Positions 4,249-23,487 of a stretch of 64,000 nt of DNA are shown piece after piece. The translations under genes were made by a program, and so were the position numbers. The DNA lies in contig JAFAZF010000003.1 of the NCBI GenBank assembly GCA_019239915.1, positions 62,001 through 126,000 on the forward strand, in the 5' to 3' direction. Origin of the DNA: Sphingomonadaceae bacterium (lineage in GTDB: Bacteria > Pseudomonadota > Alphaproteobacteria > Sphingomonadales > Sphingomonadaceae). How positions within the stretch are numbered: position 1 is the first letter of the stretch; each line of letters begins with the position of its first letter. The notes under the pieces are model-generated. The model did not search any database, had not been told where the DNA came from, and saw only the letters and a program-made list of their open reading frames with translations.

Positions 4249-4293
4249 GGTTCTCTCCGTTCGTTCGGTTGCGTTCGAGGCTAGTGGGCGCGG

Positions 4294-5124: not shown

Positions 5125-5151
5125 GTCCTCTCCTCCTCTGGCCAATGGCGG

Positions 5152-5901: not shown

Positions 5902-5902
5902 C

Positions 5903-6793: not shown

Positions 6794-6932
6794 CGCTGGA
6801 GGCTTCCGTTCTCCGCCCCGCGGATGCTCCGCGCGGGCAACCATCGGATAGGGAGCCGCACGCGCGCCGGTCAATGATGTCGCCCATCACAGCGCCGTGG
6901 AGCGCGGATCAAAGCTCGACGCGCTTGGCCGA

Positions 6933-7457: not shown

Positions 7458-7482
7458 CTCGCGTCTCCCATGCTGCTTGCCG

Positions 7483-8397: not shown

Positions 8398-8497
8398 GGC
8401 AGGGTTCTCCTCGTGGTGTCACCGCGCCTTCGAAACGGCCATCGGAGTTCCGCTCATAGGATCGGCCGCCGCTCCCGCCAAGCATGCGCCGCGTACG

Positions 8498-8535
8498 AGC
8501 GCTTTCGAAATCGCGCACTATTTCCTAGAAGCGCT
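8498..8535. promoter_or_regulatory. Inverted repeat in divergent control region
   Basis: AGCGCTT (8498-8504) and its complement AAGCGCT (8529-8535) lie in the 176-base gap between the divergent MDR (start 8397) and SDR (start 8574) genes. The spacing suits a dimeric regulator site shared by both operons, but no -10/-35 boxes are convincing and no regulator gene is adjacent. Confidence 0.3.
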
Positions 8536-8573
8536 TCGCTGGCACCGGTTGGTCAGCCGGAGGGAGGATTGCG

Positions 8574-9344
8574 ATGGGCGTGCTCGATCAATTCAGGCTG
8601 GATGGCGGGGCGGCGGTGGTGACGGGCGGCAGCCGCGGCATCGGCAAGGGCATCGCGATCGCCCTGGCCGAGGCGGGCGCGGACGTCGTCGTCGCGGCGC
8701 GACGCGCGGACTCGCTGGCGGAGACCGTCGCGGAGATCGGCCGGCTCGGCCGCCGGGTGCATGGCGTCGCCTGCGACGTTTCGCGGCCGGAGGAGGTCAG
8801 GCGGCTCGCCGACGAGGCCGTGGCGAAGCTCGGCAAGGTCACGATCTGGGTGAACAACGCCGGCGGCCAACCCGATATGAAGGTGCGGCCGTTCGTCGAG
8901 GTCAGCCACGAGAACTTCCAGGCGCAGGTCGATCTCAACCTTACATCGGTATGGGCAGGCTCGGTCGAGGCCGCGCGCATCCTTCCCCCCGGCGGATCGC
9001 TCATCAATATCTCGTCGTCCTCGGCGCGCTCCAACCGCAACATGACCTTCGCGCTCTATGGCGCGCTCAAGGCGGCGCTGAACAATCTCACCAAGACGCT
9101 GGCGGTAGAGCTCGGGCCGCAAATCCGCGTCAATGCCGTGGCGCCGGGGCCGGTGCCGACCGAGGCACTGCATAACACGCTCGGCGTCACCGCCGAGACC
9201 GAGGACGAATTTCTGCCGATGATGAACGTGCCCCTCCAGAGCTGGGGCACGCCGGCCGACATCGGCGCGGCGGTCGTCTTCATGGCATCGCCCGCCGCAC
9301 GCTGGATCACCGGCGAGTGCCTCTTCGTGACCGGCGGTCTCTAG
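8574..9344 (+). CDS. SDR family oxidoreductase
   Basis: The 256-residue classical SDR carries TGGSRGIGKG near residues 17-26, NNAGG, a Ser-rich catalytic segment (ISSSSARS) and YGALK as the YxxxK pair, and ends in FVTGGL. A strong GGAGGGAGGA lies just upstream of the ATG. It is the only plus-strand gene of the first catabolic block, divergent from the MDR-led operon and convergent with the MFS gene. This may be a ketone/alcohol step of the same pathway under shared control. Confidence 0.9.
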   Translation: MGVLDQFRLDGGAAVVTGGSRGIGKGIAIALAEAGADVVVAARRADSLAETVAEIGRLGRRVHGVACDVSRPEEVRRLADEAVAKLGKVTIWVNNAGGQPDMKVRPFVEVSHENFQAQVDLNLTSVWAGSVEAARILPPGGSLINISSSSARSNRNMTFALYGALKAALNNLTKTLAVELGPQIRVNAVAPGPVPTEALHNTLGVTAETEDEFLPMMNVPLQSWGTPADIGAAVVFMASPAARWITGECLFVTGGL

Positions 9345-9374
9345 GGAGCGCGATCCTGACCTCAAGCGCCATGA

Positions 9375-10583
9375 TCATGCCGCCACGGCGGCGGGCGTGG
9401 CGGACCGGCGGGCGATTACCATGGTGATCGGCAGCGTCACGACCAGCGTCGCGATGCTGACGAGCAGGAACAGCACGCTGCCGCCGAACCGCGCGCCGAT
9501 CTGCGAAGCGAGGATCGGGAAGAAGATCTGTGAGCCGTAGAGCGCAAGGTTGGCAGCGCCGAGCGCCGGGCCCGAGCGCTCGCCCAGCGTTTCGCTGATC
9601 GAGGTGTAGAGCGCGGCGATATAGCCGACCGTCCCGATGCCGGCGAGGCAGAAGCCGACGGTGATCAACGTCCAGCTTCCCGTCATCGCGATGAGCACGC
9701 CGCCCAGCCCGAAGATGGTGAGGAAGACGACCAGCGAAGACCGTGTCCCGATCGCGCGATGCACCGGGCCGTAGGCGCCCGAAGCGAGCATCGCCATGAG
9801 CGACATGATCGAAAGCGAGAGCCCGCTCTTGGCGGGATCGGGGATGCCCACCTCCGCCATGTAGGTCGGCCCATAGAAGGACCCTGAGCTCATGCTGAGG
9901 CCGAAGATCGCAATCGCGAGGACCAGCGGCGGCTGGAGCCCGCCAAGGATCGAACCGCGCGGCGCGCTCGCTGCGTCCGCGCTCGCCTTCGGCGTCGCTC
10001 CCGGCAGCCCGAGCACGAGCGCGAGCACCGGCAGCAGGGCAAGGTGGATGAGGAAGCTGTAGTGCCAGCCGTGCTTCACGAGCAGACCGACCAGCGGATA
10101 GGCCGCCGCGATGGTGACGGACCCCATCAGGTTCAGCATTCCGAACATGCCTGGCCGCTGTTGCGCCGGCAGCGAGGCGATGCCGGCGAGGCTCGCCGCG
10201 AGCGAGGCCGAGACACCCAGAGCGATCACGACGCGTGAGAGCAGGATCAGCCAAAGATTGTCGAGTACGACCGGTGCGACGCCGCCCAACACGTAGAATA
10301 GTATGCCCGCCAGATAGACGGTGCGGTAACCCAGCCGATCGACGAGTCGTCCGAAGGCAGGCGAGGTCAGCGCGAAGGCGGGCCCGCCGATCCCGGCGAT
10401 CGCGGGGATGAGCATCGCGGCATGCGGTGCAGAGGCGAACTCCGCCCGCATCGCGGGCAGTGGAATCCCGATCGTGAAGATGCCGATGCCATTGAAGCTG
10501 CTCCCCATCATCAGCGCCAGCCGCCCGAGGAAGGGTATCGGCGGCCCCTCGGCCGCGTGGGTTTGCGCGGATCCGGCGCTCAT
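9375..10583 (-). CDS. MFS transporter
   Basis: The 402-residue protein has about twelve hydrophobic segments and the loop-2/3 signature GRLVDRLGYRTVYL of the major facilitator superfamily. The ATG at 10583 (MSAGSAQ) is nine bases from GGAGAG, whereas the ATG at 10592 would abut it, so 10583 is preferred. It lies 70 bases after the last beta-oxidation gene on the same strand and probably belongs to that transcript. Role: proton-coupled uptake of the organic acid substrate, or export of an intermediate; direction cannot be told. Confidence 0.88.
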   Translation of the reverse strand: MSAGSAQTHAAEGPPIPFLGRLALMMGSSFNGIGIFTIGIPLPAMRAEFASAPHAAMLIPAIAGIGGPAFALTSPAFGRLVDRLGYRTVYLAGILFYVLGGVAPVVLDNLWLILLSRVVIALGVSASLAASLAGIASLPAQQRPGMFGMLNLMGSVTIAAAYPLVGLLVKHGWHYSFLIHLALLPVLALVLGLPGATPKASADAASAPRGSILGGLQPPLVLAIAIFGLSMSSGSFYGPTYMAEVGIPDPAKSGLSLSIMSLMAMLASGAYGPVHRAIGTRSSLVVFLTIFGLGGVLIAMTGSWTLITVGFCLAGIGTVGYIAALYTSISETLGERSGPALGAANLALYGSQIFFPILASQIGARFGGSVLFLLVSIATLVVTLPITMVIARRSATPAAVAA

Positions 10584-10653
10584 GTCGGGCATCTCTCCAA
10601 TCTTTTGTGTTGGAGGAGCCTAACGGGTCGCCAGCGAAGGTCCAGCGGCCGGT

Positions 10654-11448
10654 TCAGCCGATCGTCGCGGTCGCTGCCATGATGTTTCCCCCCGCCGCGT
10701 TGCGAACCGCGAGCGCGAGCGTCTCGCCGTCGCGCTCCCCGGACAGCGTGATCGGCTCGTCGGCGAAGGCGGGTTGCTGCGCGCGGAAGGTGAAACGGAT
10801 CAGCCGGTTGGAGCCCAGCGCGCGATCGGCCAGGTCGAGCAGCAGCGTCGCCATCAGCGGTCCGTGGACGACGAGACCGGGATAACCTTCCATTTCATGC
10901 GCATAGGGGAGGTCGTAATGAATGCGATGGCTGTTGAAGGTGAGCGCGGAGTAACGGAACAGGAGCGCGGGCGAGGGGGTAATCGTGCGCGACCAAGGCC
11001 CCTCTGCCGGTGGATTGGCGAAGACTGGGGCAGGCATCGGCGGGGGTGCGCCGCTGGCCGGCTCGCGATAGACGATCGTCTGCGTCTCCTCGATCGCGGT
11101 GGCGCCGGCGGCACGGGTGATATGCTCGGCCGTCACGAACAGGAGCCGCCCGCTGGAGCCCTGCTTGTCGACCCGATCGACGATCCGCGATTGTCGCTCG
11201 ATCGCCGTCCCGATCGGCAGCGGTGCGAGGAAGCGCACGTCGCTCGCCGCCCACATGCGGCGCGGGGGCAGTGTGCCATCGGGCAGCGGATGACCGTCCG
11301 GGCCGAGGCCGGCGGTCGGTGCCTCCGGCGTGGCGAGGCACCAGTGGATGCCTTGCGGCGCGACGTCCGTGCACGGCTCGCGATCGAGCGTCGCGGCAAA
11401 GCGGGCGGCAAGCGCGGGGGTGAGCAGATCGGTCCGGATCTCGTCCAT
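10654..11448 (-). CDS. FAS1-like/MaoC-type dehydratase (mesaconyl-C4-CoA hydratase-like)
   Basis: The 264-residue protein is a double hot-dog hydratase: an N-terminal FAS1-like dehydratase part (about 1-140, with RRMWAASDVRF) and a C-terminal part with the hydratase motif FNSHRIHYDLPYA (Asn and His in place) followed by HGPLMATLLLDL. The layout and length match the mesaconyl-C4-CoA hydratase group of the 3-hydroxypropionate cycle and their many uncharacterised relatives. Its ATG overlaps the TGA of the upstream acyl-CoA dehydrogenase (TGATG). It closes the eight-gene beta-oxidation operon and would hydrate an enoyl-CoA that is branched or carries a second carboxyl group; the substrate is inferred. 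Confidence 0.8.
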   Translation of the reverse strand: MDEIRTDLLTPALAARFAATLDREPCTDVAPQGIHWCLATPEAPTAGLGPDGHPLPDGTLPPRRMWAASDVRFLAPLPIGTAIERQSRIVDRVDKQGSSGRLLFVTAEHITRAAGATAIEETQTIVYREPASGAPPPMPAPVFANPPAEGPWSRTITPSPALLFRYSALTFNSHRIHYDLPYAHEMEGYPGLVVHGPLMATLLLDLADRALGSNRLIRFTFRAQQPAFADEPITLSGERDGETLALAVRNAAGGNIMAATATIG

Positions 11449-13049
11449 CAATTGCGCACCGCCAGCAGCCCGCGTGCGATCACATGCGCCTGGATTTCCG
11501 CCGCGCCCTCGAAGATGTTGAGGATCCTCGCATCGCACAGCACGCGGCTGATCTCGCTTTCCAGCGCATAGCCGTTGCCGCCGTGGATCTGCAGCGCATT
11601 GTCGGCATTGGTCCAGGCGACGCGCGCGGCGAGCAGCTTGGCCATGCCCGCCTCGACGTCGCAGCGCCGGCCCTTGTCCTTCTCGCGCGCGGCGAAATAG
11701 GCGAGCTCGCGCGCAGCGACGATCTCGACCAGCATCATCACCAGCTTGTCGGAGACGCGCGGAAAATCGAACAGCGGCTTGCCGAACTGCCTGCGCTCCA
11801 GTGCATAGGACAGGCCCAACTCATAGGCGCGCCAAGCCACGCCGACGGCGCGCGCGGCGGTCTGGATGCGCGCGCCCTCGAAGGTGCGCATCAGCTGGCG
11901 GAAGCCCTGCCCCTCATCACCGCCCAGAACGCCGTCGGCGGGCACCGCGAAGCCGTCGAACATCAGTTCATATTCGCGCATGCCGCGATAGCCGAGCACG
12001 GCGATCTCGCCGCCCGACATGCCGGCGGCGGGGAAGGGATCGGCCTCCGTCCCGCGCGGCTTCGGCGCGAGGAACATCGAGAGCCCGGCATTGCCCGGTC
12101 CGCCGGTGCGCACGAGCAGCGTCATCAGGTCCGATCGCGCGGCGTGGGTGATCCATGTCTTGGCGCCGGAGATACGCCAGTCGCCGTCCGCATCGCGCAC
12201 GGCGCGGGTCTGCAGGCCGGCGAGGTCCGATCCGTTGGACGGCTCGGTAAAGACCGCGGTGGGCAGCACCTCGCCACTGGCGATGCGGGGCAGCCAGTCG
12301 GCCTTCTGCGCCTCGGTGCCACCCGCGGAGATCAACTCGCCGGCAATCTCCGATCGCGTGCCGAGCGAGCCCGCGCCGATCCAGCCGCGCGACAGCTCCT
12401 CGGTGACGACGCACATCTCGAGCTTGCCGAGACCGAGACCGCCATATTCCGGCGCGATGCAGATGCCGAAGGTGCCGAGCGCCGCCAGCTCCGCGATCAG
12501 CGCGTCCGGGATCAGCGCGTTGGCAAGGTGCCAGCCATGCGCGTGCGGCGTGATCTTCTCGGCGGTGAAGCGGCGATACTGATCGCGGATCGAATCGACA
12601 ATGTCATCGCCGAACTCCTCTGCAATGCCACCGCCGTCGCGGATATGCGCGGCTAGCCGTGCGCGCGCCTCGGGCGATGTGCCTGTCGCGACGATCGTCG
12701 CGGTCTCGCCAAGGAAGCGCGCGGGATCGAGCCCCAACTGCTGGGGGCGGACGAACTCGCTGGCGCTGATCGGCAGGCCGCTACCGATCTGCGCGCAATA
12801 TTCGCCGAACGCGATCGTCAGCAGCGTCCGCTCCGCCTCGCCCAAGCGGCCGCGCGCATCCAGATCGCGGCCCCAGGCGAGCAGCGCCTCCAGCGCCGCG
12901 ACTGTGGTCTCGATCCAGGCGAGGCCGTGGGCGGCACGCTGTTCCGGATCGAGCCCGGCGGCCTCGATCCGCGCGCGAACCGCATTCCGCGCTTCGCCAG
13001 CGAGCCGCCGCGCGGCGTCGGCCGCCTCGGCAAGGCGATCGATCGTCAC
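11448..13049 (-). CDS. Acyl-CoA dehydrogenase with long N-terminal extension (methylsuccinyl-CoA dehydrogenase-like)
   Basis: At 533 residues this flavoprotein is longer than the usual 380-400. Its first 150 or so residues are an extra helical segment before the standard ACAD fold. The ACAD part shows [48 protein letters not shown] and the C-terminal [11 protein letters not shown] and IFEGAAEIQ, where Glu of EGA is the expected catalytic base. (2S)-methylsuccinyl-CoA dehydrogenase of the ethylmalonyl-CoA pathway has the same extra N-terminal domain, so branched-chain acyl-CoA substrates are likely. The start is a GTG overlapping the TGA of the CoA-transferase gene (GTGA). Confidence 0.85.
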
Positions 13050-14257
13050 GCCACGAGCCCCTCGTCGTGCAGCTTGCCGATCGCGCCGGATGTGAGCCCA
13101 AGCACCTCGGCGAGAACCGCATCGCTATGCTCGCCGAGGCGAGGCGCACGCACGGGCGGGAGCCGCTCCTCCTGCGGGATCGTCGCCATCGCGCCGGGCA
13201 CGGGGTAGGAGAGGCCGCTCGCCTGCTCAATCGTCGAGAAGACCGGATTGTCGGCGACCAGCACCGGATCGCGCGCCGCTTCGATCATCGTGCGGTACGG
13301 GCCCCAGCAGCAGCCGAGCGCGTCGAACACCGAGCCGAGGTCGGCGGCGGTGCGTCGCGCGACGGCCGCCTCCACCAGCGGCACCAATACGTCGCGATGC
13401 TCGAAGCGCACGCCTTCGTCCCTCGCGAAGGATACGCCACGCTCCGCTTCGATCGCCGCAACCGCCTCGCCTATTCCGAGCGCCTTCATCAGGCCGGTCC
13501 ACTGTCGCGGCGTGATCGCCATCACCATCAGCCGCTCGCCGTCCGCGGTCACGTAATCGCGGCCGAAAGCGCCATAGACTTCATTGCCGTAGCGGGCACG
13601 GTTCTCGCCGGTGGTGAGAACCTCGGCGAGCTGGCCGAGATTGGCGATCGTGGCGATGCCGACATCCGACAGCGGGATGCGCACCTCCTGCCCGCGGCCG
13701 GTCTCGCGCCGGTGCCGCTCGGCGGCGAGCAGCGCGAAAGCGGCATAGGCGCCGGTGAGGAGGTCCCAGGCGGGCAGCACGTGGTTGACCGGCTGCGCGC
13801 CGAGGCTCGCGGGGCCGGTGATCTGCGGGATGCCGAGCGCGCAATTGACGGTGTAGTCGAGCGCGGGCCCGCCGTTCGCCTGCCCCATGATCCGTACCGT
13901 GACGAGATCGGCCCGGCGCGCGGCAAGCTTGTCGTGCGAGAGGAAGCCCTCGACGGGATAGTTGGTGACGAACAGCCCCGCCTGCTCCCCCGCCGCGGTG
14001 GCGAGCGCGGCGAGCAGTTCGCGCCCCTCGGGCCGGCCGAGATCAAGCGCGACCGACTTCTTTCCTTTGTTGAGCCCTTCCCAGTAGAGGCTTGATCCAG
14101 CGTCGTTCTTCGGCCAGCGATTGAAGTCCGGTCCACCGCCGATCTGATCGACGCGGATCACCTCCGCGCCCATCTGCGCGAGATAGAGACCAGCGCTCGG
14201 CGAGGCGACGAAGGACGAGGCCTCCACCACCCGCAGCGGCTTCAGGAGATCATACAT
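13046..14257 (-). CDS. CaiB/BaiF (family III) CoA-transferase
   Basis: The 403-residue protein begins [16 protein letters not shown], and its ATG overlaps the TGA of the preceding acyl-CoA dehydrogenase gene. It shows the family III pattern: [34 protein letters not shown], then [17 protein letters not shown] and the C-terminal region with [13 protein letters not shown]. The catalytic Asp of family III enzymes would lie in the [15 protein letters not shown] region, where the usual D is not evident by eye. These enzymes move CoA between carboxylic acids, here probably activating the imported acid at the expense of succinyl-CoA or a pathway intermediate. The frame upstream of 14257 is a shadow of the neighbouring gene. 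Confidence 0.87.
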
Positions 14258-15441
14258 CAGCCCTGCGCCGCAAACTCGCGGAGCATGTTCTTGGCGATGA
14301 CGAGCTGCTGGATCTGCGTCGTGCCCTCGTAGATGCGATAGACGCGCACGTCGCGATAGAAGCGCTCGACCTCGTATTCGGCCATGTAGCCGGCGCCGCC
14401 GTAGATCTGCACGGCGCGATCGGCGATGCGTCCGCAGGCCTCGGTCGCGAACAGCTTCACGCAGCTTGCCTCGGTGGAGAAGGGCAGGCCGTCTTCGGCG
14501 CGGCGCAGCGCATCGGCGAGCATGCTCTCGGCGGCGTAGAGCTCGACCTTGGAATCGGCCAGCATCGCCTGGATCAGCTGGAAGTTGGCGATCGTCTCGC
14601 CGAATGCCTTGCGCTCGGTCGCGTAGCGCAGCGCGCTCTCCAGGATGCGCCGCGAATAACCGATCGCGCTCGATCCGACCGAGAAGCGCCCGGTATCGAG
14701 CGCCATCATCGCTGTCTTGAAGCCCCGTCCTTCCTCGCCGCCGAGCAGGGCGGAGGCGGGCACGCGCACATCCTCCAGCACAATGTCGCCTGTCAGCGCG
14801 CCGACCTGGCCCATCTTCTTGTCGGGCTTGGCGCGGGTGAGGCCCGGCGTGTCGGTCGGCACCAGGAAAGCCGAGACGTGCGCGTTCTTGGGCAGGTTCT
14901 CGGCCGATGTGCGCGCCATCACCAGCACCATGTCGGCGATCGGCCCGTTGGTGATGTAGCGCTTGGTGCCGTTGAGGACGTAGTGATCGCCGTCCTTTGC
15001 CGCGCGGGTGCGCAGGCCCGCGGAATCGGAGCCGCTGTCCGGCTCGGTCAGTCCGAAGGCACCGATCGCGCCGGCGGCGAGCTTGGGCAGCCATTCGCGC
15101 TTCTGCTCGTCCGTGCCCGCATTTCTGAGCGCGGTGCAGATCATGCCGGTGTTGATCGAGAGCACGGCGCGGAAGGCCGGCGCGGCCCAGGCGATCTCGG
15201 TGATCGTCTCGATATATTCGGTGAGGCTGAGGCCGAGGCCGCCATATTCGGTGGGGACGGTGAGCCCGAACAGGCCCATCTCGCGCATCTCCGCGAGCAC
15301 CCAGTCGGGCAGTTGCCCCAGCTCCATCACCTCTGGCTCGGCGGGCACGAGCCGCTCGCGTACGAAGCGGCGGATCTGGTCCTTGAACGCGGCGAAGGTC
15401 TCGGCGTCCATGGAGCGGCCGGTGGCGGGCCGATCAAGCAT
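14257..15441 (-). CDS. Acyl-CoA dehydrogenase
   Basis: This is a standard-length (394 residues) FAD-dependent ACAD: EYGGLGLS, GLTEPDSGSDSAGLRT, NGTKRYITNGPIAD, ERKAFGETIANFQ, QIYGGAGYMAEYEVERFYRD and RIYEGTTQIQ, whose Glu is the expected catalytic base. It inserts the alpha-beta double bond in a CoA ester and passes electrons to ETF. Its start overlaps the thiolase stop by eight bases. With the extended ACAD three kilobases downstream it gives the operon two dehydrogenases, consistent with two rounds or two different chain types. Confidence 0.92.
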   Translation of the reverse strand: MLDRPATGRSMDAETFAAFKDQIRRFVRERLVPAEPEVMELGQLPDWVLAEMREMGLFGLTVPTEYGGLGLSLTEYIETITEIAWAAPAFRAVLSINTGMICTALRNAGTDEQKREWLPKLAAGAIGAFGLTEPDSGSDSAGLRTRAAKDGDHYVLNGTKRYITNGPIADMVLVMARTSAENLPKNAHVSAFLVPTDTPGLTRAKPDKKMGQVGALTGDIVLEDVRVPASALLGGEEGRGFKTAMMALDTGRFSVGSSAIGYSRRILESALRYATERKAFGETIANFQLIQAMLADSKVELYAAESMLADALRRAEDGLPFSTEASCVKLFATEACGRIADRAVQIYGGAGYMAEYEVERFYRDVRVYRIYEGTTQIQQLVIAKNMLREFAAQG

Positions 15442-16642
15442 CGGCCAGGCCCACGATCGCGACCGCCGAGACGTTTTGGCTCGGCATGCCGCCGAGATTG
15501 TGGCTGAGCGCGAGGCTCGGCGGGGTCTTGCGCTGCCGCTCGCCGGCGCGGCCGAGCAGCTGGAGGTAGTTCTCGTAGATCATCCGCAGGCCCGAAGCGC
15601 CGATCGGGTGGCCGAAGCATTTGAGGCCGCCGTCGATCTGGCAGGGCACCTGGCCGTCGGCGTCGAACACGCCGTCGAGCACATCGCGCCAGCCCTCGCC
15701 TTCCTTGGAAAGATAGAGGTCTTCCATCGTCACCAGCTCCGTGATCGAGAAGCAGTCGTGCACTTCGGTGAGGCTGATCTGCTCGCGCGGATTGGTCACG
15801 CCGGCCTCCTCATAGGCCTTGGTCGCGGCAATGCGGGTGGTGTGGAAATAGCTGCCGTTCCAGCCACCTCCTTGCTGGAGCTCCCAACCGTTCGAGGTCG
15901 AGATCTGTAGCGCCTTGACGGTGACGAGGTCTTTCTTGCCGAGGCTGCGCGCGATTTCCGGCGTGGTCACGATCGCGCACGCGGCGCCGTCCGACACGCC
16001 GCAGCAGTCGAACAGGCCGAGCGGCTCGGCGATCATCGGCGCGCCGAGCACGGTCTCCATGTCGACCGCCTTGCGCAGGTGCGCCTTCGGGTTCTTGGCG
16101 CCGTTGGCGTGGCTCTTGACCGAAACGTGCGCCATGGCGCGCTTGAGGTCGTCCTTGCCGACGCCGTGCGCGGCCCGATAGGCGGAAGCGAGCTGGGCGA
16201 AGTTGCCCGGCGCCGAGCCGGTCACGCCGACCATGTCGAAGGTCGTGCCGCGGGTGCGCACCGGCAGGCCGCCATAGCCCGTGTCCTTCAGCTTCTCGAC
16301 GCCGAGCGCGAGCGCGATGTCGGCCGCGCCGGACGCTACCGCATAGACCGCGCCGCGGAAGCTCTCGGTGCCGCTCGCGCAATAATTCTCGACCTTGGTG
16401 ACGCCGATGTTCGGCAGCCGCAGCGCCATCGAGAGCGGAATGCCGGAAGGGCCGATGTTGACCGCATCGAACGCGACGCCCAGCCACGCGGCGTCGATCT
16501 GCGAGCTGTCGATACCGGCATCGCCGATGGCTTCCTCGAACGCCTCGACCATCAGCTGGTCGGCATCCTTGTCCCAGCGCTCGCCGAACTTGGCGCATCC
16601 CATGCCGAGGATCGCCACCTTGTCCTTGATGCCGCGTGCCAT
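15434..16642 (-). CDS. Thiolase (SCP-x / acetyl-CoA acetyltransferase type)
   Basis: The 402-residue protein has the thiolase fold with the acyl-accepting Cys88 in ENYCASGTES, His in TEVHDCFS and the C-terminal CFGHPIGASG. It lacks the extra loop of classical biosynthetic thiolases and most resembles lipid-transfer-protein/SCP-x thiolases. In bacteria and archaea such thiolases act with DUF35 OB-fold partners. Here the next gene upstream, three bases away, encodes exactly such a DUF35 domain fused to an HMG-CoA-synthase-like domain. It should carry out thiolytic, or retro-aldol, chain cleavage after the SDR step. Confidence 0.9.
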   Translation of the reverse strand: MARGIKDKVAILGMGCAKFGERWDKDADQLMVEAFEEAIGDAGIDSSQIDAAWLGVAFDAVNIGPSGIPLSMALRLPNIGVTKVENYCASGTESFRGAVYAVASGAADIALALGVEKLKDTGYGGLPVRTRGTTFDMVGVTGSAPGNFAQLASAYRAAHGVGKDDLKRAMAHVSVKSHANGAKNPKAHLRKAVDMETVLGAPMIAEPLGLFDCCGVSDGAACAIVTTPEIARSLGKKDLVTVKALQISTSNGWELQQGGGWNGSYFHTTRIAATKAYEEAGVTNPREQISLTEVHDCFSITELVTMEDLYLSKEGEGWRDVLDGVFDADGQVPCQIDGGLKCFGHPIGASGLRMIYENYLQLLGRAGERQRKTPPSLALSHNLGGMPSQNVSAVAIVGLADA

Positions 16643-16645
16643 AGC

Positions 16646-18124
16646 TCAGGCCTCCTTGGCGACGGGTGCCGCCTTCCAGAAATACTTCGTGAAATCACGC
16701 ATCTCGTCGGTGCCCTTGATGCGGAACACCATCTCCATCTCGCGCCCCACCTCGACATCGTCGGCGCTGACGTCGGCGAATTCGATCATCATCCGGCCGC
16801 CGCCGTCGAAGTCGATCATGCCGTAATAACTGGGGGGCGCGGGCGAGTAGGTCAACGCGTCCGCCGTGTAGGTGACGATCTTCGCGCGCTTGTCGGCGAG
16901 GGGGTAATCCTCCTGCGTGTGCGCGGCGTGATCGTTGGGATTCACGCTGATGTCGCTCCTGGGGAACTGCACCGTGCCGGTCTTGGTGCAGCGGCCGCCG
17001 ACGAGGCCGAGCACCGCCTTGCGGTTGCGCCAGAGCGTCGTGCCGGGCTGCTTCTGGTCGGCCTCGGCGCGCATGCCGCGTTCGAGATCGAGCAGGCCGC
17101 GATGGAACAGCCAGCGCAGGTAGTTCTCGTCCTTCTGGCCGCGTGCCAGGCTGCCCTTCACACCCTTGCGAGGGCTGAGCTTGGCCAGCGCCTCGGTGGT
17201 CTCGAGCAGGATCAGGTCGACGCCCTGGCCGAAGCCGACCAGCAGGATTTTCTCGCCTGGCTTGGCGGCTTCCAGAGCTGCCACAAGCAGCAGCAACGGA
17301 TGCGCCGCACCGCTGTCGCCGACGCTGGCGGACAGCACGTCCGCGACCGCCTCAGGCTTGATCCCCGCCTTCTTGGCCAGGCCGTCCGGCACGCCGCGCA
17401 CCGAAATCGGCACGATGAACTTGTCGATCGTGCCCGCCTCGACGCCGAGCGCCTTGAGCCCGTCTTTGAGCGCGCCGCCGATCAGGCCGGTGAAGCCCTC
17501 GTCGCGGATCCAGCGGCTCTCCCAGCCATAGTCGAAATCCATGCCGGTCGAGCGGTAATGATCGACGAAGTCGATCGTCGTGCTGTAGCTGCCCTTGAAC
17601 AGAGCGACCGCATCGCCGGAGCCGACCAGCACGCCGGCCGCCGCATCGCCGTTGACGAGCTCGCCTTCGGACGCCGGCCGCGCCTTGCGCATCTCCGAGG
17701 CGAGGACGAGTTGCACCCGTCCATCTCCGCTGCCGCCGCCCGCGCCCTTCAGCGCCTGGATCAGCAGCGAAGTGGCGGCGCGCATGCTGCCGGTCACGTC
17801 CATCGCGCCGGTCTCGTCGGCGAGGTTCAGCGCTTCCTTGATCACGCCGCTGTTCTGCCGGTCGACGAAGGGCAGGGTGGTCGAGGCGAGCGCCACCGAT
17901 CCCACCGTCGTGCGATCGACGCCCTCCAGTGTATCGCGCGCGGCCTCGACCGCCATCGTGATCGCGTCCTCATCCCAGTCGCCGATCGCGCGCTCGCCCT
18001 TGGCGAGACCCTTCAGGCCGCCCGCGAACCAGGCGTTGGCGGCGTAGATCGAGGCGCGCTGGAGGCGCTTCTTGGGGATATAGGCGCCAAAGGAGAGAAT
18101 GCCGCCAAGGGGACCATTCGTCAT
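16646..18124 (-). CDS. Degenerate HMG-CoA-synthase-like domain fused to DUF35 OB-fold domain
   Basis: The 492-residue fusion starts MTNGPLGGIL; its ATG overlaps the MaoC stop (ATGA). Residues 1-320 have the HMG-CoA synthase/KAS III thiolase fold (SFGAYIPKKRLQ, GSVALASTTLPFVDR, GDAAAGVLVG). Residues about 360-492 are a DUF35 domain with YTYSPAPPSYYGMI-type OB-fold strands. By eye, all three catalytic positions of HMG-CoA synthases differ: M114 (TGSMRAAT) for the Cys, I237/V238 (FIVP) for the His and D270 (VGDSGAA) for the Asn. The DUF35 zinc ribbon keeps only C379. It is therefore probably non-catalytic and a scaffold or substrate channel for the adjacent thiolase, as DUF35 is in the archaeal thiolase-HMGCS complex. 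A true activity with other residues is not excluded. Confidence 0.85.
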   Translation of the reverse strand: MTNGPLGGILSFGAYIPKKRLQRASIYAANAWFAGGLKGLAKGERAIGDWDEDAITMAVEAARDTLEGVDRTTVGSVALASTTLPFVDRQNSGVIKEALNLADETGAMDVTGSMRAATSLLIQALKGAGGGSGDGRVQLVLASEMRKARPASEGELVNGDAAAGVLVGSGDAVALFKGSYSTTIDFVDHYRSTGMDFDYGWESRWIRDEGFTGLIGGALKDGLKALGVEAGTIDKFIVPISVRGVPDGLAKKAGIKPEAVADVLSASVGDSGAAHPLLLLVAALEAAKPGEKILLVGFGQGVDLILLETTEALAKLSPRKGVKGSLARGQKDENYLRWLFHRGLLDLERGMRAEADQKQPGTTLWRNRKAVLGLVGGRCTKTGTVQFPRSDISVNPNDHAAHTQEDYPLADKRAKIVTYTADALTYSPAPPSYYGMIDFDGGGRMMIEFADVSADDVEVGREMEMVFRIKGTDEMRDFTKYFWKAAPVAKEA

Positions 18125-18963
18125 GCGAACTCCGCATAGCCGTTGTTGAGGACGACGAGGTCGCGTTCCGCGACCCTCGCGCGGAAGGCGGCATGGCCGC
18201 TGCTGGTCCGCCAGATCTCGGTCACGATCGTTTCGCCGGGATAGACCGGCGCAGAGAAGCGTGCGCCGATCGCCTTGAGCTTCGCCGGATCGTTGCCGCA
18301 CAACGCGCGGACGATCGCGCGTCCGACGATGCCGAAGGTGCACAGGCCGTGCAGGATCGGGCGATCGAACCCCGCCTTCTTCGCGACCTCGGGATCGATG
18401 TGCAAAGCATTGTAATCGCCCGAGAGGCGATAGAGCAAAGACTGTGCAGGGAGCGTGGCGATCGCCACGCTTTCGTCGAACGCGCGCTCGGGCGGGGCGG
18501 GGCGGGGCGCCGGCTGGCCCTCGGACGAACCGCCGAAGCCGCCGTTGCCGCGCAGGAAGCTGGTATTGTTGACCGTGGCGAGCAAGGTGCCCGCGCCATC
18601 GCTCAGCGTCCGCGTCTGGCGCACGACACAGCCCTTGTCCGCGCCCTTGTCGTAGATGCCGAGCACGCTGTTCGTGCCGACGAAGCGGCCCTCGGGCGGC
18701 AGCGGGCGATGCAGGATCACCTCGGTCTCGCCGTGGAGGATCTTCGTCGTGTCGACGCCGAGCGCCGGATCGGCCCAGAAGCCGAAGCCCGGATAGCCGA
18801 GCACCACCGCCATCGTCGGAAGTGCCGTGAGCCCGCGCTCGTAGACGAAGGGCAGCTCCTCGGCGCCGACGCCGAGCGCATAGAGCTGCGTGTCCTTTGC
18901 GGTCCAATCGACCGCGACGTCGATATGACGCGCGCGCAGGAGCTCGGGATCGAAACCGGCCAC
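18121..18963 (-). CDS. MaoC-family enoyl-CoA hydratase (hydratase 2 type)
   Basis: The 280-residue double hot-dog protein resembles the hydratase half of peroxisomal multifunctional enzyme 2. The hydratase-2 motif is intact: YRLSGDYNALHIDPEVAKKA (Asp, Asn, His), followed by HGLCTFGIVGRAIV. The likely start is the GTG at 18963 (VAGFDPELL), two bases after the TGA of the SDR gene; no ATG is available nearby and the ribosome site is weak, so coupling to the SDR is likely. It hydrates a trans-2-enoyl-CoA to the (R)-3-hydroxyacyl-CoA, which the SDR next to it would oxidise. Confidence 0.88.
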   Translation of the reverse strand: MAGFDPELLRARHIDVAVDWTAKDTQLYALGVGAEELPFVYERGLTALPTMAVVLGYPGFGFWADPALGVDTTKILHGETEVILHRPLPPEGRFVGTNSVLGIYDKGADKGCVVRQTRTLSDGAGTLLATVNNTSFLRGNGGFGGSSEGQPAPRPAPPERAFDESVAIATLPAQSLLYRLSGDYNALHIDPEVAKKAGFDRPILHGLCTFGIVGRAIVRALCGNDPAKLKAIGARFSAPVYPGETIVTEIWRTSSGHAAFRARVAERDLVVLNNGYAEFA

Positions 18964-18965
18964 GG

Positions 18966-19886
18966 TCAGACCGGATCGTAGGGCCAGATGTCGGCCGAGC
19001 GCTCGAGCGGGCCGAACACCGGCTTCATCGCCGGGATCAGCTCCTCGGCGATGCTCTCGACCGTCCAGCCCTCCGAACGGTGCATCGTCTTGATTGGCCG
19101 CGGGCGCGAGAAGACGAAGATCTCGTTCTTGCGCACGCCGAAGATCTGGCCGGTCACGTCGCTCGCCGCGTCGGACAGGAGGGCGGCGACCATCGGTGCG
19201 ATCTTGTCCGCGGACATCGTCTTCATCCGTTCGACGCGCAGCTTCTCGGCCTCGGTCTCCGCGGGGATGGTGGCGATCAGCCGGCTCCACGCGAACGGCG
19301 CGATGCAGTTCGAGCGGACGCCGAACTTCTGCATGTCCAGTGCGATCGAGTTGGACAGGCCGACGATGCCCATCTTCGCGGCCGAGTAATTGGCCTGGCC
19401 GAAATTGCCGATCAGCCCGGACGTCGAGGTGAAGTGGACGAAGCTGCCCGAGCCCTGGTCCTTGAAATAGGGCGCCGCCGCCTTCGAGACGAGAAACGCG
19501 CCGTTGAGGTGGACGTCGATCACCTGCCGCCAGTCGACTTCGGAGAGACGGTGGAAGATGCGGTCGCGCAGGATGCCGGCATTGTTGACGACGCCGTCGA
19601 CCCGCCCGAACGCCTTGACCGCATCCTCGATGATCGAGGTCGCACCCTGCGGATCGGCGACGCTGGCGCCGTTGACGATCGCCTTGCCGCCGGCGTTCCG
19701 AATGATCGAGACGACCTCTTCGGCGGGTCCGGCGTCGTTGCCCTCACCTTCGGCGGAGGCGCCGAGATCGTTGACGACGACGGCTGCGCCTTCCTTCGCG
19801 CAGAGCAACGCGATCTCGCGCCCGATCCCACGCCCGGCGCCGGTCACGGCGACCACCTTGCCCTCCAGCATCTGCGACTCGGCCAT
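18966..19886 (-). CDS. SDR 3-hydroxyacyl-CoA dehydrogenase (MFE-2 N-terminal-like)
   Basis: The 306-residue SDR shows TGAGRGIGREIALL, VNDLGAS (an Asp-containing second strand favouring NAD+), NNAGILRDRIF, TSTSGLIGNFGQANYSAAK and a C-terminal tail beyond the usual SDR length. The VNDLG and GNFGQANYSAAK signatures are those of the dehydrogenase half of peroxisomal multifunctional enzyme 2. It therefore oxidises (R)-3-hydroxyacyl-CoA. Two ATGs are adjacent (19889, 19886); AGAGG is three and six bases away respectively, so 19886 is preferred. It is the first gene of the eight-gene operon and faces the IclR gene across the control region. Confidence 0.9.
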   Translation of the reverse strand: MAESQMLEGKVVAVTGAGRGIGREIALLCAKEGAAVVVNDLGASAEGEGNDAGPAEEVVSIIRNAGGKAIVNGASVADPQGATSIIEDAVKAFGRVDGVVNNAGILRDRIFHRLSEVDWRQVIDVHLNGAFLVSKAAAPYFKDQGSGSFVHFTSTSGLIGNFGQANYSAAKMGIVGLSNSIALDMQKFGVRSNCIAPFAWSRLIATIPAETEAEKLRVERMKTMSADKIAPMVAALLSDAASDVTGQIFGVRKNEIFVFSRPRPIKTMHRSEGWTVESIAEELIPAMKPVFGPLERSADIWPYDPV

Positions 19887-19934
19887 CATTTTCCTCTCGC
19901 GATCGACTGCGGCTTCATAGCGGGCACGGCGCTG

Positions 19935-19972
19935 CATTCAACACTGCGAATGGACATTCATCATCATGAATG
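19935..19972. promoter_or_regulatory. Paired inverted repeats, candidate IclR operator
   Basis: CATTCAT (19955-19961) and ATGAATG (19966-19972) form a perfect 7-base inverted repeat with a 4-base centre. Just upstream, CATTC (19935-19939) and GAATG (19948-19952) form a second with the same core. The four CATTC/GAATG half-sites lie between the divergent SDR operon and the IclR gene. If IclR starts at ATG 19970 the repeat overlaps its start; with ATG 19988 it lies fully in the leader. This suits a repressor that controls itself and the divergent operon. Confidence 0.5.
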
Positions 19973-20791
19973 CCAGAATCGGCGTGCATGGATCAGCCGA
20001 CCCGCTCTACCGCCAGTCCGCCGCGCCCGCTCGTCGGTTCCGTGGTACAGGCGATCGCCGTGCTTCGCCATCTCGGTCGGCTCGATCGCCCCGAAGGCGT
20101 CACGGCGATCGCGGCGCGCCTGAGGCTCAGCCCGAGCAGCTGCTTCAATATCCTGAAGACGCTCGCGGCCGAGGAGCTCGCGACTTTCGACCCGCAGACG
20201 CGCGCCTACAGCCTCGGCCCGGGCGCGATCGATCTCGCCCGTGCCGCGCTCGGGCGCGACGAGGTCGTCCGCGCCGCGCGGCCGGCGATGGACGGCATCG
20301 CCGAGAAGTATGACGTCGCGGTCGGCCTGTGGCGGCTCGGCAGTGGCGAGCGGCTGACGCTGACCGCGCTGTCCGAGAGCGAATCGGCGACGCGTATCCA
20401 TCTGGTGATCGGGCAGCGCCAGCCGGCCGAAGCCGGCGCGACCGGTCGTGCGGTGCTCGCCGCCCGCGGCGCATCCGACGCTGCCATCCGGAACGCCTGC
20501 GCTGCGGTGCGCTGGCGGCAGCCGCCGTCGCCTGCCGACTATGTCGCTCAGGTTCGCGCCGCGCGGGCGAAAGGTTGGGCGCTCGATGCCGATCAGATCA
20601 TCATCGGCGTGACCACCGTCGCCGCGGTGATCGCCGATCGGGAGGGCCAAGTGCGCTTCAGCCTGTCCGCCTCGACCTTCACCGGGCGCGAGCCGCCGCG
20701 CCGCATCGAGCAGATTGGCGAAGCGATATGCGATGCCGCGCAGGCGATCGCGCGAAGCATCTATGGCATCGCCGCGGCGCCGGCGGCATAA
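19970..20791 (+). CDS. IclR-family transcriptional regulator
   Basis: The protein has 273 residues (267 from the alternative ATG at 19988). An N-terminal winged helix-turn-helix (about 22-85: VVQAIAVLRHLGR, VTAIAARLRLSPSSCFNILKTL, LGPGAIDLARAAL) is followed by the IclR effector domain, with ATGRAVLAARG and a C-terminal DREGQVRFSLSAS. IclR proteins sense aromatic or small organic acids and usually act next to the operon they control. Here the gene lies between a divergent beta-oxidation operon and the co-directional P450-amidase-peptidase genes (41-base gap to the P450), so it is the likely regulator of both arms. Confidence 0.92.
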   Translation: MPESACMDQPTRSTASPPRPLVGSVVQAIAVLRHLGRLDRPEGVTAIAARLRLSPSSCFNILKTLAAEELATFDPQTRAYSLGPGAIDLARAALGRDEVVRAARPAMDGIAEKYDVAVGLWRLGSGERLTLTALSESESATRIHLVIGQRQPAEAGATGRAVLAARGASDAAIRNACAAVRWRQPPSPADYVAQVRAARAKGWALDADQIIIGVTTVAAVIADREGQVRFSLSASTFTGREPPRRIEQIGEAICDAAQAIARSIYGIAAAPAA

Positions 20792-20832
20792 GGCCCGAGC
20801 CCGAGAAGGTCCCACCGATAATGAGAGATGCC

Positions 20833-22038
20833 ATGATCGATACCCTCGTTGAGCGACCCGAAAATGTTCCGCCGGAACTGGTCGTCGACTTCGACTTCTT
20901 CGCGTTGGGCGACAAGGACGAGGATATCCAGCTCGCCTTCGCCGCCTTGCATGACGGCCCTGACATCGTCTGGACACCGCGCAACGGCGGCCACTGGATC
21001 GCCACCCGCGCGGCCGATTTCGACGTGATCCAGATCGATCACGAGCATTTCAGCCATCACAATTTCAACCTGCCGAAGAACGGCATCGACGCGACCTCAC
21101 TGCCGCTCGGGCTCGATCCGCCCGAGCACACACCGTTTCGCCGCCTCATGATGCCGGCGTTCATGCCGAAGGCGGTGAAGGCGCTCGAAGGCGTGGCGCG
21201 GGAGACGGCGCGGGCGCTGGTCGCGAAGATCGCGCCGCAGGGAAGGTGCGAGTTCATCGAGGAATTCGCCAAGATCCTGCCGATCAACGTGTTCCTCGGC
21301 ATGGTCGATCTGCCGCTCGCGGATCGCGACATGCTGTTGCCTTGGGCCGAGATCGCGGTGCGCTCGCCCGACATCGCGCAGCGCGCCGACGTCCATCACA
21401 AGATGCAGGGCTATCTCGGCCGCTATGTCGATGCGCGCATGGCCGAGCCCGGCGATGACATCATCAGCATGATTGCGAAGGGCGAGATCGATGGCCGGCC
21501 GATCACGCGCGAGGAGGTGCTGCGCATGTCCACGCTGCTGCTGTTCGGCGGCCTCGACACCGTCGCTTCGCAGCTCGGCTTCATCGCGCACTACCTCGCG
21601 CGGCATCCGAAGCAGCGCGCCGAGCTCGTCGGCAATCCGAGCCTCAACCAGGTCGCGTGCGAGGAATTGATCCGCCGCTTCGGCCTTCCCAACACCGCCC
21701 GCGTGCTGACGACGGATTACGACTATAAGGGCATTCGCTTCCGCAAGGGCGACATGATCCAGATGCCCAAATGCCTCTACGGGCTCGACGATCGCGTGAA
21801 CACCGATCCCAGGACCGTCGACTTCCACCGCAAGCCTTCGACGATCAAGCACGCCGCGTTCGGCGCCGGCCCGCACACCTGCCCGGGCGCGGTGCTGGCG
21901 CGGCGCGAGATCATGGTGTTCTTCGACGAGTGGCTGCCGGCGATCCCCGATTTCGAGCTCGATCCCGACGACGAGGTCGTCATGGCCTCCGGCCCGGTGA
22001 ACGGCGTGCTGCGGCTGCCGCTGCGCTGGAAGGTGTGA
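20833..22038 (+). CDS. Cytochrome P450, CYP101 (P450cam)-like
   Basis: The 401-residue soluble class I P450 has heme-ligand Cys350 in FGAGPHTCPG, the I-helix GGLDTV with D242-T243 (the acid-alcohol pair of P450cam) and E278-x-x-R281 of the K helix. NGGHWIATR, PQGRCEF, IDGRPIT and FGGLDTV follow P450cam closely (from memory), pointing to the CYP101 group, which hydroxylates camphor, ionones and related terpenoids. The start is either ATG 20833 (GAGAG five bases upstream) or ATG 20821, adding four residues. No ferredoxin or ferredoxin reductase lies adjacent, so electrons must come from partners elsewhere. It probably introduces the first hydroxyl group of the catabolic substrate. Confidence 0.93.
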   Translation: MIDTLVERPENVPPELVVDFDFFALGDKDEDIQLAFAALHDGPDIVWTPRNGGHWIATRAADFDVIQIDHEHFSHHNFNLPKNGIDATSLPLGLDPPEHTPFRRLMMPAFMPKAVKALEGVARETARALVAKIAPQGRCEFIEEFAKILPINVFLGMVDLPLADRDMLLPWAEIAVRSPDIAQRADVHHKMQGYLGRYVDARMAEPGDDIISMIAKGEIDGRPITREEVLRMSTLLLFGGLDTVASQLGFIAHYLARHPKQRAELVGNPSLNQVACEELIRRFGLPNTARVLTTDYDYKGIRFRKGDMIQMPKCLYGLDDRVNTDPRTVDFHRKPSTIKHAAFGAGPHTCPGAVLARREIMVFFDEWLPAIPDFELDPDDEVVMASGPVNGVLRLPLRWKV

Positions 22039-22074
22039 GCCGCAAGGCCTGATCGAGGCGACGGAGGCGACGCG

Positions 22075-23487
22075 ATGAAAGACATCTGCGCGCTCTCCGC
22101 GGCCGAACTCAGCACCGCCTATGCCGGCCGCGCCCTCTCGCCGGTGGAGGTCGTGGAGGCCGTGCTGGCGCGCGTCGAGCAGGCCGATGCGCTGCTCGCC
22201 GCGACCTGGGCGCTCGATCCGGTTCGCGCGTTGCGGGACGCCCGCGCTTCCGAGGCGCGGTGGTTCGCGGGCACGCAGAACGGCCCGCTCGACGGTGTTC
22301 CGGTCACCGTCAAGGAGATGATCGCGACCGAGGGCGTCGCGCGCCCGCTCGGCACCGCGGCCGGCGACATGACCCCGCAGCCGCGCGACGCGCCGCCCGC
22401 CGCGCGGTTGCGCGAGGCCGGCGCGATCGTCTTCGCCAAGACGACCAATCCCGATTACGGGATGCTCTCGTCGGGCCTCTCGAGCTTCCATCGGCTGGCG
22501 CGCAATCCCTGGGATCCGCACTGCACGCCGGGCGGATCGAGCGCGGGCGCCGCCGCTGCGGCGGCGGCCGGCTACGGCCCCATCCACATCGGCACCGACA
22601 TCGGCGGCTCGATCCGGCTGCCGGCCGGGTGGTGCGGCATCTTCGGGCTGAAACCCAGCTTCGGGCGCGTGCCCATCGATCCGCCCTATATCGGTCGCGT
22701 CGCCGGGCCGATGACGCGCACCGTCCGCGATGCCGCACTCGCGATGGCGGCGCTCTCCGGCGTCGACGAACGCGACTATATGAGCCTGCCGCCCAAGCGG
22801 ATCGCCTGGACCGACCTCAACCACAAGGTCGCCGGGCTCCGGGTCGGTTTGTTGACGGAGGCTGGTTGCGGCCTGCCGGTCGATCCCGAGATTGCTGAAG
22901 CGGTGATGCGCGCCGCCGGCCTGCTCGAAGCCGCCGGTGCGATCGTCGAACCGGTTCAGCCGTTCCTGACGCGCGCGATGCTCGACGGGCTCGATCGCTT
23001 CTGGCGCATCCGCTTCCTCGACCAGACGCGCGATCTGCCGCCCGAGCGCTATGCGCGCATCCTGCCTTACATCCGGGCATGGCTCGAGCCGGCGCGGGAT
23101 TATGATGGGCTCGCTGCCTATACCGGTTTCGATCAGATCATCCGCATGCAGGAAGCGGGCGCGGCCGCTTTCGCGCGCTTCGACTTCTGGATCTCGCCGA
23201 CGGCGCCCGTGGTTGCGTTCGCCGCCGAGAAGGCAAGCCCGCTCGACGATCCGGCGCGGCCGTTCGAGCATATCGGCTTCACGGTGTGGAGCAACATGAC
23301 CGGCCAGCCGTCCGCCTCGATCAACTGCGGCTTCACGGCGGCCGGGCTGCCGATCGGGCTGCAGATCGTCGGACGGCGCTTCGACGATCTCGGCGTGCTC
23401 CGCTTCGCCCACGGCTTCGAGCAGCTCTGCCCGATAGACCGGCCCTGGCCACGACCATGGCCGGATCGCGAGGAGAAGGTGGCGTGA
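22075..23487 (+). CDS. Amidase-signature hydrolase
   Basis: The 470-residue enzyme has the complete Ser-cisSer-Lys triad: K80 (VTVKEM), S155 (PGGSSAG) and nucleophile S179 (TDIGGSIRLPAG). The glycine/alanine-rich signature GGSSAGAAAAAAAGYGPIHI is intact. It hydrolyses a carboxamide or possibly an ester. Residues about 190-470 carry the usual C-terminal covering. It follows the P450 gene by 36 bases and overlaps the peptidase gene, so the three act under one promoter, probably releasing the acid from an amide-linked substrate. It is not GatA, since no gatB/gatC lies nearby. Confidence 0.92.
   Translation: MKDICALSAAELSTAYAGRALSPVEVVEAVLARVEQADALLAATWALDPVRALRDARASEARWFAGTQNGPLDGVPVTVKEMIATEGVARPLGTAAGDMTPQPRDAPPAARLREAGAIVFAKTTNPDYGMLSSGLSSFHRLARNPWDPHCTPGGSSAGAAAAAAAGYGPIHIGTDIGGSIRLPAGWCGIFGLKPSFGRVPIDPPYIGRVAGPMTRTVRDAALAMAALSGVDERDYMSLPPKRIAWTDLNHKVAGLRVGLLTEAGCGLPVDPEIAEAVMRAAGLLEAAGAIVEPVQPFLTRAMLDGLDRFWRIRFLDQTRDLPPERYARILPYIRAWLEPARDYDGLAAYTGFDQIIRMQEAGAAAFARFDFWISPTAPVVAFAAEKASPLDDPARPFEHIGFTVWSNMTGQPSASINCGFTAAGLPIGLQIVGRRFDDLGVLRFAHGFEQLCPIDRPWPRPWPDREEKVA

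Follow-up and report, generated by a model that had tools for sequence, protein, structure and literature searches.

An HMG-CoA-synthase fold without its catalytic residues, fused to DUF35, as probable partner of a catabolic SCP-2-type thiolase

What does a protein with the fold of 3-hydroxy-3-methylglutaryl-coenzyme A (HMG-CoA) synthase do in an operon once its catalytic residues are gone? The question is raised by a gene in the window, the 64,000-nucleotide (nt) stretch of contig JAFAZF010000003.1 (positions 62,001 to 126,000) from a Sphingomonadaceae bacterium that we analysed. This gene encodes a 492-residue protein in which an HMG-CoA-synthase-like half is joined to a DUF35 half, and a gene for an SCP-2-type thiolase starts three bases past its end. 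The fusion is, with good confidence, a non-catalytic pseudo-synthase partner of this catabolic thiolase, a reading in which we infer the complex, the direction of the reaction, the substrate class and the role of each half.

The open reading frame (ORF), Pfam and an AlphaFold2 (AF2) model all agree with the two-domain architecture named in a preliminary description of the locus. Pfam places ACP_syn_III_C at residues 223-302 and OB_ChsH2_C at 411-468, together with a zf-ChsH2 match at 373-390 that lies below the Pfam cut-off. The single-chain AF2 model, built from 64 sequences (predicted local distance difference test score 90.8, predicted TM-score 0.93), finds its top structural match in archaeal HMG-CoA synthase (6esq_I, TMt 0.89), followed by the PhlA-like chains of CsATase and PhlABC (5m3k/5mg5, 0.82) and by MucABC chains. 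In sequence, the synthase half is nearest to PhlA (5m3k_A, 1e-28) and to a 9skh chain of CsATase (5.5e-28), and the HMG-CoA-synthase models of NCBIfam all stay below their cut-offs on the fusion (148, 99 and 34 bits, with cut-offs of 244, 353 and 360).

All four catalytic columns of the synthase half are altered. Alignment places Met114 at the nucleophilic Cys, Thr82 at the Glu of HMG-CoA synthase, Pro239 at the His, and Asp270 at the Asn of KAS III, so that neither the Cys and Glu, with His, of an HMG-CoA synthase nor the Cys-His-Asn triad of KAS III is present. The alignments to 6esq_I and FabH (2aj9) reproduce the earlier by-eye placement of Met114 and Asp270 and correct that of the His column, which had been put at Ile/Val237-238, one residue too early. 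The loss of catalytic residues is a family trait. We compared 115 distinct members, comprising the window protein, those of 80 loci (the best 80 of 138 confirmed), 27 from genomes of the window's family and 7 from plasmids. Column 114 holds Gln in 73, Leu in 25, Met in 6, Arg in 5, Lys in 2, and Thr and Pro in one each, while one member is masked (L076) and one gapped (L118); Cys occurs in none of the 113 readable members. Column 82 is Thr in 110 (V 2, E 1, A 1, gap 1), column 239 mostly Pro (P 82, A 15, S 9, G 6, V 1, H 1, C 1), and column 270 mostly acidic (D 58, E 31, Y 6, N 5, F 5, H 4, six others). Seven members retain a single catalytic residue (Glu82 in L069; His239 in L101; Asn270 in L073, L078, L105, L116 and L119), and none of the 115 retains two of the four together.

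The synthase half might still be an active condensing enzyme, an HMG-CoA synthase or KAS III, that uses another nucleophile: the overall fold is preserved in the AF2 model, some relatives have cysteines at columns 48, 65, 240, 268 or 302, and seven members keep one of Glu82, His239 and Asn270. However, this half of the window protein lacks Cys altogether, the sole cysteine being Cys379 in DUF35, no Cys column is universal in the aligned relatives, and the catalytic residues never occur in pairs. An active synthase is thus extremely unlikely, and the half is predicted to be catalytically dead, as the preliminary description had proposed.

The prevalence of Gln at column 114 (73 of 115 rows) brings up a second alternative, a KSQ-like decarboxylase, in which a Cys-to-Gln change makes a decarboxylase of a condensing enzyme; a FabH C112Q structure is present in the PDB, going by its entry title. 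The window protein, with Met114 and Pro239, does not have the residues of such an enzyme. Near-syntenic relatives alternate between Gln and Leu (L002 Q, L003 L, L004 Q), and Leu, Met, Arg, Lys, Thr and Pro also occur at this position. KSQ domains retain the catalytic His, which is present in only 1 of the 115 members. Moreover, a quick, unrooted tree of 79 rows with flagged long branches requires 13 or more changes at this column (L006, partial, and L076 were excluded from this and from the larger tree described below). A residue that changes so often and differs among near-syntenic relatives is not one conserved new catalyst, and we regard a KSQ-like decarboxylase as very unlikely.

Both halves of the fusion are under purifying selection. 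In five near pairs, the ratio of nonsynonymous to synonymous substitution rates (dN/dS) spans 0.19-0.39 in the synthase half (for L006, part of the half only), 0.10-0.17 in DUF35 and 0.06-0.11 in the thiolase. The synthase half is constrained, though most loosely, which fits the expectation for a scaffold. Away from the lost triad, W50, D51, E52, D53, T56, M57, D198, W201, E202, R204 and R207 are invariant among 64 sequences, and some of these 11 vary in more distant relatives. The stretches 50-57 and 198-207 (window 17504-17977), in which these positions concentrate, could possibly form a new binding or interface site.

The DUF35 half has its own history of loss or gain. DUF35 is present in the window protein, but its Cys4 zinc ribbon is not: as noted earlier by eye, one ribbon cysteine is left, Cys379. 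Over the 115 rows, four or more ribbon cysteines occur in 72, one in 35 and none in 8. The trait requires two changes on the 79-row tree and three on a 113-row tree, equally quick, unrooted and with long branches flagged, which contains 34 rows more, including the cysteine-free group L099-L103. Unrooted trees are compatible with either direction; repeated loss of the zinc site is likelier than gain because PhlB and other DUF35 proteins retain it.

In contrast to the fusion, the thiolase has a complete active site with the nucleophilic Cys88, HDCF and GHP; GHP serves as a criterion motif of thiolases. Its NF004810 score assigns it to the SCP-2-type thiolases. Among 77 aligned thiolases, Cys88 is found in 76 of 76 lettered rows (one gap), HDCF in 75 of 75 (two gaps) and His345 in 76 of 76 (one gap), and six further plasmid thiolases retain Cys88 and HDCF. 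DUF35 partners are also common to Ltp2 and Sal, which would allow the thiolase to be a retro-aldolase of this type. Yet according to excerpts of PMC12329534, HDCF is found in SCP-2 thiolases together with a second Cys, the nucleophile, whereas Sal has Gly in place of this Cys and the motif YDCY, and Ltp2 has YDHF. The presence of Cys88 and HDCF in all lettered rows therefore marks the protein as a thiolase, and leaves an Ltp2/Sal-type aldolase hardly any probability.

Fusion and thiolase occur together. Among 199 genomes of the window's family, the fusion is found in 25 and the thiolase in the identical 25; among 385 genomes of its class, both are found in the same 64 (E-value limits 1e-40 and 1e-70 in both samples, which both include the window's genome and four or more other genomes that gave no match). 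These identical sets depend on the limits chosen and on shared ancestry, and we therefore attach no probability to them. A same-strand thiolase lies downstream of 28 of 29 fusions in the family sample and of 68 of 69 in the class sample, within 300 nt in 28 and 58 cases, respectively; with the window's genome counted once, this gives 95 of 97 fusions, 85 of them within 300 nt. Further, 76 of the 80 relative loci contain the thiolase at 60% identity or more. In the remaining four, the sequence ends inside the fusion (L051, L075) or about 770 bases past it (L044), or has masked stretches (L053). Clustering of the neighbours beyond the thiolase yielded no constant partner. As a separate observation, two thiolases of 85% and 91% identity (L112, L113) lie without an adjoining fusion, and their genomes, G031 and G081, carry the fusion elsewhere.

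A precedent for such a partner exists. Excerpts of PMC6392133 describe PhlABC as a bacterial complex of a thiolase, DUF35 and a dead HMG-CoA-synthase-like subunit, PhlA, which has Gly115 at the Cys and Cys83 at the Glu. They give the assembly as Phl(A2C2)2B4, with acyl transfer by PhlC residues only and with activity dependent on expression of the complete operon. PhlABC (PpATase of Pseudomonas protegens, 5m3k/5mg5; homologue CsATase, 9skh) thus shares with our locus the dead HMG-CoA-synthase-like, DUF35 and thiolase-like catalytic parts, and its PhlA is homologous to the synthase half, with Gly where the window protein has Met. The two differ in that PhlABC consists of three separate chains, while the A- and B-like parts are one ORF here; PhlB retains its Cys4 zinc, while the window DUF35 has a single ribbon Cys; and PhlABC acylates phenols independently of CoA.

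Given this likeness, the complex could be a biosynthetic C-acyltransferase like PhlABC or MucABC and not a catabolic thiolase, and it is indeed to PhlA and the CsATase chain that the synthase half is nearest. The thiolase, however, is much nearer to 7yvy (9e-54), archaeal 6esq_A (2e-48) and BbsB (3.9e-44) than to PhlC (4e-14) or 9skh_I (1e-16). In addition, the genes around the pair in the window encode acyl-CoA dehydrogenases, MaoC, a short-chain dehydrogenase/reductase (SDR) and a CoA transferase, and a relative lies in an estrogen-type catabolic cluster. We consider a biosynthetic acyltransferase unlikely, if less so than the other alternatives. On the residues and context given for each, the active synthase, the KSQ-like decarboxylase, the Ltp2/Sal-type aldolase and the PhlABC-like acyltransferase are all rejected.

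Other related systems share single features with the locus. The archaeal thiolase/HMG-CoA synthase complex (6esq) has the same three folds; its thiolase ranks second among the sequence matches of the window thiolase, and its synthase chain is the structure most similar to the synthase half. That synthase has Cys114 and Glu82, neither of which is present in the fusion; and it is composed of separate chains, is biosynthetic and channels acetoacetyl-CoA, as reported in parts of PMC6392133 and PMC12329534. The archaeal arrangement of two active sites sharing one CoA site is not found here, where catalytic residues occur in the thiolase only. MucABC of Streptococcus macacae (9vbo/9vbt), known from PDB titles and sequence, is a multi-component acyltransferase with HMG-CoA-synthase/KAS III-like and thiolase-like parts on separate chains, as opposed to the one-chain fusion. 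The benzoylsuccinyl-CoA thiolase BbsAB (7pxp) likewise combines a catabolic thiolase with a DUF35 partner, but no 7pxp chain matches the synthase half. Moreover, passages of a 2010 paper (PMC2954200) note pairs of an active and an inactive thiolase-superfamily protein with DUF35, as well as DUF35 fusions to thiolase-superfamily domains. The principle of a dead synthase with DUF35 and a thiolase is therefore already known, and the locus varies it by joining A and B in a single chain and pairing them with a catabolic thiolase. New are the single-chain fusion as thiolase partner, for which we found no description in the search listings and excerpts of open-licence PubMed Central papers that we examined, its breadth, its catabolic setting and the three zinc-site changes on the 113-row tree. 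Of the preliminary description, the fused scaffold for a catabolic thiolase is backed by the dead half, the DUF35 fusion, the co-occurrence and the gene order among beta-oxidation-type genes; a bacterial complex of this kind is already published in PhlABC, and channelling into the synthase half is not expected, as no active site is left there to receive an intermediate.

We propose the following mechanism for the pseudo-synthase partner. The fusion would be a PhlA-like dead HMG-CoA-synthase fold joined to a PhlB-like DUF35 zinc-ribbon/OB domain, which most likely forms one stable enzyme together with the adjacent thiolase, in the way that PhlA, PhlB and PhlC combine. All chemistry would be performed by the thiolase (Cys88, HDCF, GHP), probably thiolysis of a bulky or branched 3-ketoacyl-CoA that the operon's own acyl-CoA dehydrogenase, hydratase and SDR would supply. 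The synthase half may brace the thiolase and line the acyl cavity, and DUF35 may close the CoA/acyl site.

Several observations weigh against this interpretation. The trypanosomal SLP is a thiolase-like SCP-2 relative without DUF35 (excerpts of PMC12329534), and the requirement for a partner is therefore not automatic. In the class sample, 10 of 69 pairs are separated by 300-6000 nt; in four distant pairs, other genes lie between fusion and thiolase; in one genome per sample (G081, G550), fusion and thiolase lie on different contigs; and two thiolases in the family sample and five in the class sample are unpaired by position. The scattered cysteines in the synthase half of some relatives belong here as well, as does a sixth, distant pair (L020) with dN/dS of 0.44-0.59, perhaps saturated. 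Finally, an SDR or MaoC homologue (at least 40% identity) is found in only 34 of the 80 loci, and the wider context therefore varies.

In the window, SDR, MaoC, fusion, thiolase, acyl-CoA dehydrogenase, CoA transferase, a further acyl-CoA dehydrogenase and a MaoC-like protein follow one another as a tightly packed row on the minus strand (Table 1). A plasmid of Sphingomonas paeninsulae carries these genes, as annotated, in the same order. Across the 80 loci, SDR homologues at 40% identity or more occur in 31 and MaoC homologues in 18. A scan for promoters and terminators found one promoter-like and one terminator-like site, no more than the 1.0 and 5.3 expected, and was thus uninformative.

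Table 1. Features of the fusion, its thiolase and the adjoining genes, in window positions
Feature	Position	Strand	Basis
HMG-CoA-synthase-like (about 8-340)/DUF35 (about 360-490) fusion, 492 aa	16646..18124	-	ORF, alignments, Pfam, AF2 model
Thr82 codon, HMG-CoA synthase catalytic Glu column	17879..17881	-	alignment to 6esq_I
Met114 codon, catalytic Cys column	17783..17785	-	alignment to 6esq_I and FabH 2aj9
Pro239 codon, catalytic His column	17408..17410	-	alignment
Asp270 codon, KAS III Asn column	17315..17317	-	alignment to 6esq_I and FabH 2aj9
Cys379 codon, remnant of DUF35 Cys4 zinc ribbon	16988..16990	-	alignment
SCP-2-type thiolase, 402 aa	15434..16642	-	NCBIfam NF004810/PRK06157, 688.5 bits, cut-off 403
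Thiolase nucleophile Cys88 codon	16379..16381	-	alignment
Thiolase HDCF motif (295-298)	15749..15760	-	alignment
Thiolase GHP motif (344-346)	15605..15613	-	alignment
IclR-type regulator, divergent	19970..20791	+	
SDR, 3-hydroxyacyl-CoA dehydrogenase of MFE-2 type	18966..19889 (start 19889 or upstream)	-	homology to SDR of L050 hydratase-2/SDR/SCP2 protein
MaoC/hydratase-2 type enoyl-CoA hydratase, GTG start, stop overlaps fusion start	18121..18963	-	
Acyl-CoA dehydrogenase, 8-nt overlap with thiolase end	14257..15441	-	
Family III CoA transferase	13046..14257	-	nearest NCBIfam 2-methylfumaryl-CoA isomerase, 413 bits, below cut-off 725
Second acyl-CoA dehydrogenase with N-terminal extension	11448..13049	-	
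Second MaoC-like protein	10654..11448	-	Pfam matches under curated cut-offs

The fusion occurs in Pseudomonadota, Desulfobacterales-type bacteria and Actinomycetota, the last sampled by two proteins (L116, L118) of ten listed. Annotated records name family members 'OB-fold domain-containing protein' (so also on the S. paeninsulae plasmid), '3-oxoacyl-ACP synthase III C-terminal domain-containing protein' or 'hypothetical protein', and in one record only 'hydroxymethylglutaryl-CoA synthase'; these names conceal the likely role of the family. Three metagenome bins are titled Bordetella parapertussis (L014), Kuenenia (L021) and Klebsiella pneumoniae (L080), and their fusions cluster with those of environmental proteobacteria; the titles look unreliable.

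The partner reading also bears on estrogen degradation. On plasmid p3 of Novosphingobium sp. ES2-1, a fusion 32% identical to the window protein, with Leu at 114, is directly followed by an intact thiolase. This pair is flanked by genes for enoyl-CoA hydratases and an SDR; close by lie genes for a P450, an indolepyruvate ferredoxin oxidoreductase and a lipid-transfer/OB-fold pair. By gene order alone, the arrangement matches that described for the edc cluster of N. tardaugens, whose 'HMG-CoA synthase' EGO55_13555 its describers were unable to assign to a step of the pathway (excerpts of PMC7793797). As in the window, this 'synthase' adjoins a thiolase (EGO55_13550); the syntenic ES2-1 relative is a fusion with Leu114, though distant from the window protein. 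Five loci of the window's family (L094-L098) show a similar arrangement of homologues. By analogy, the fusion as thiolase partner offers a possible role for the estrogen-cluster 'HMG-CoA synthase', in which case losing the edc 'synthase' should phenocopy losing the adjacent thiolase.

In the Desulfobacterales-type bacteria, the fusion is extended further. Its chain runs on into an SDR in all 13 deltaproteobacterial relatives (11 titled Desulfobacterales or its families, 2 Deltaproteobacteria), and the match also spans most of an SCP2 region in 10 of them, L050 included; of the other three, L077 is shorter, and L051 and L075 stop where their contigs do. Pfam confirms both domains in L050, where a 719-residue hydratase-2/SDR/SCP2 protein lies directly upstream of the fusion and the thiolase directly downstream. 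Such a fusion would tie the scaffold to the dehydrogenase predicted to make the thiolase's substrate. As the synthase half has no active site, any channelling would run from the hydroxyacyl-CoA dehydrogenase to the thiolase, a route that only the Desulfobacterales-type fusions suggest.

The overall scheme resembles peroxisomal MFE-2/SCP-x oxidation. It is conceivable, though we think it rather doubtful, that a peroxisome-like assembly for beta-oxidation in bacteria is built around the fusion and passes 3-ketoacyl-CoA from an MFE-2-type dehydrogenase to the SCP-2-type thiolase. In such an assembly, the dead fold would have persisted for this purpose in Pseudomonadota, Desulfobacterales-type bacteria and Actinomycetota, with the dehydrogenase and an SCP2 lipid-binding domain welded on in the Desulfobacterales-type group; it would fill the 'HMG-CoA synthase' function of the estrogen cluster and would have dispensed with the zinc ribbon more than once. 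With its lack of a catalytic Cys, the DUF35 fusion, the zinc-site changes and the extra domains in one group, the family provides a natural series for the passage from enzyme fold to scaffold.

Some further features of the window concern the surroundings of the fusion. A 686-residue plus-strand open frame (16079-18139), antisense to fusion and thiolase, looks like a high-GC artefact. The CoA transferase sits two genes from the MaoC-like protein (window 10654-14257), and its homologues (at least 40% identity) occur in 11 of the 80 loci, three gammaproteobacterial ones among them; the two proteins hint at a branched dicarboxylate on which CoA is transferred intramolecularly. Downstream of the IclR regulator, genes for a P450, an amidase and a peptidase S58 (20800-24497) possibly form a separate catabolic unit. 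On the other side, the region 3082-10592 encodes a TauD-type dioxygenase, SDRs, a beta-lactamase-fold hydrolase, a SnoaL-like protein and an MFS transporter, and is likewise catabolic-looking.

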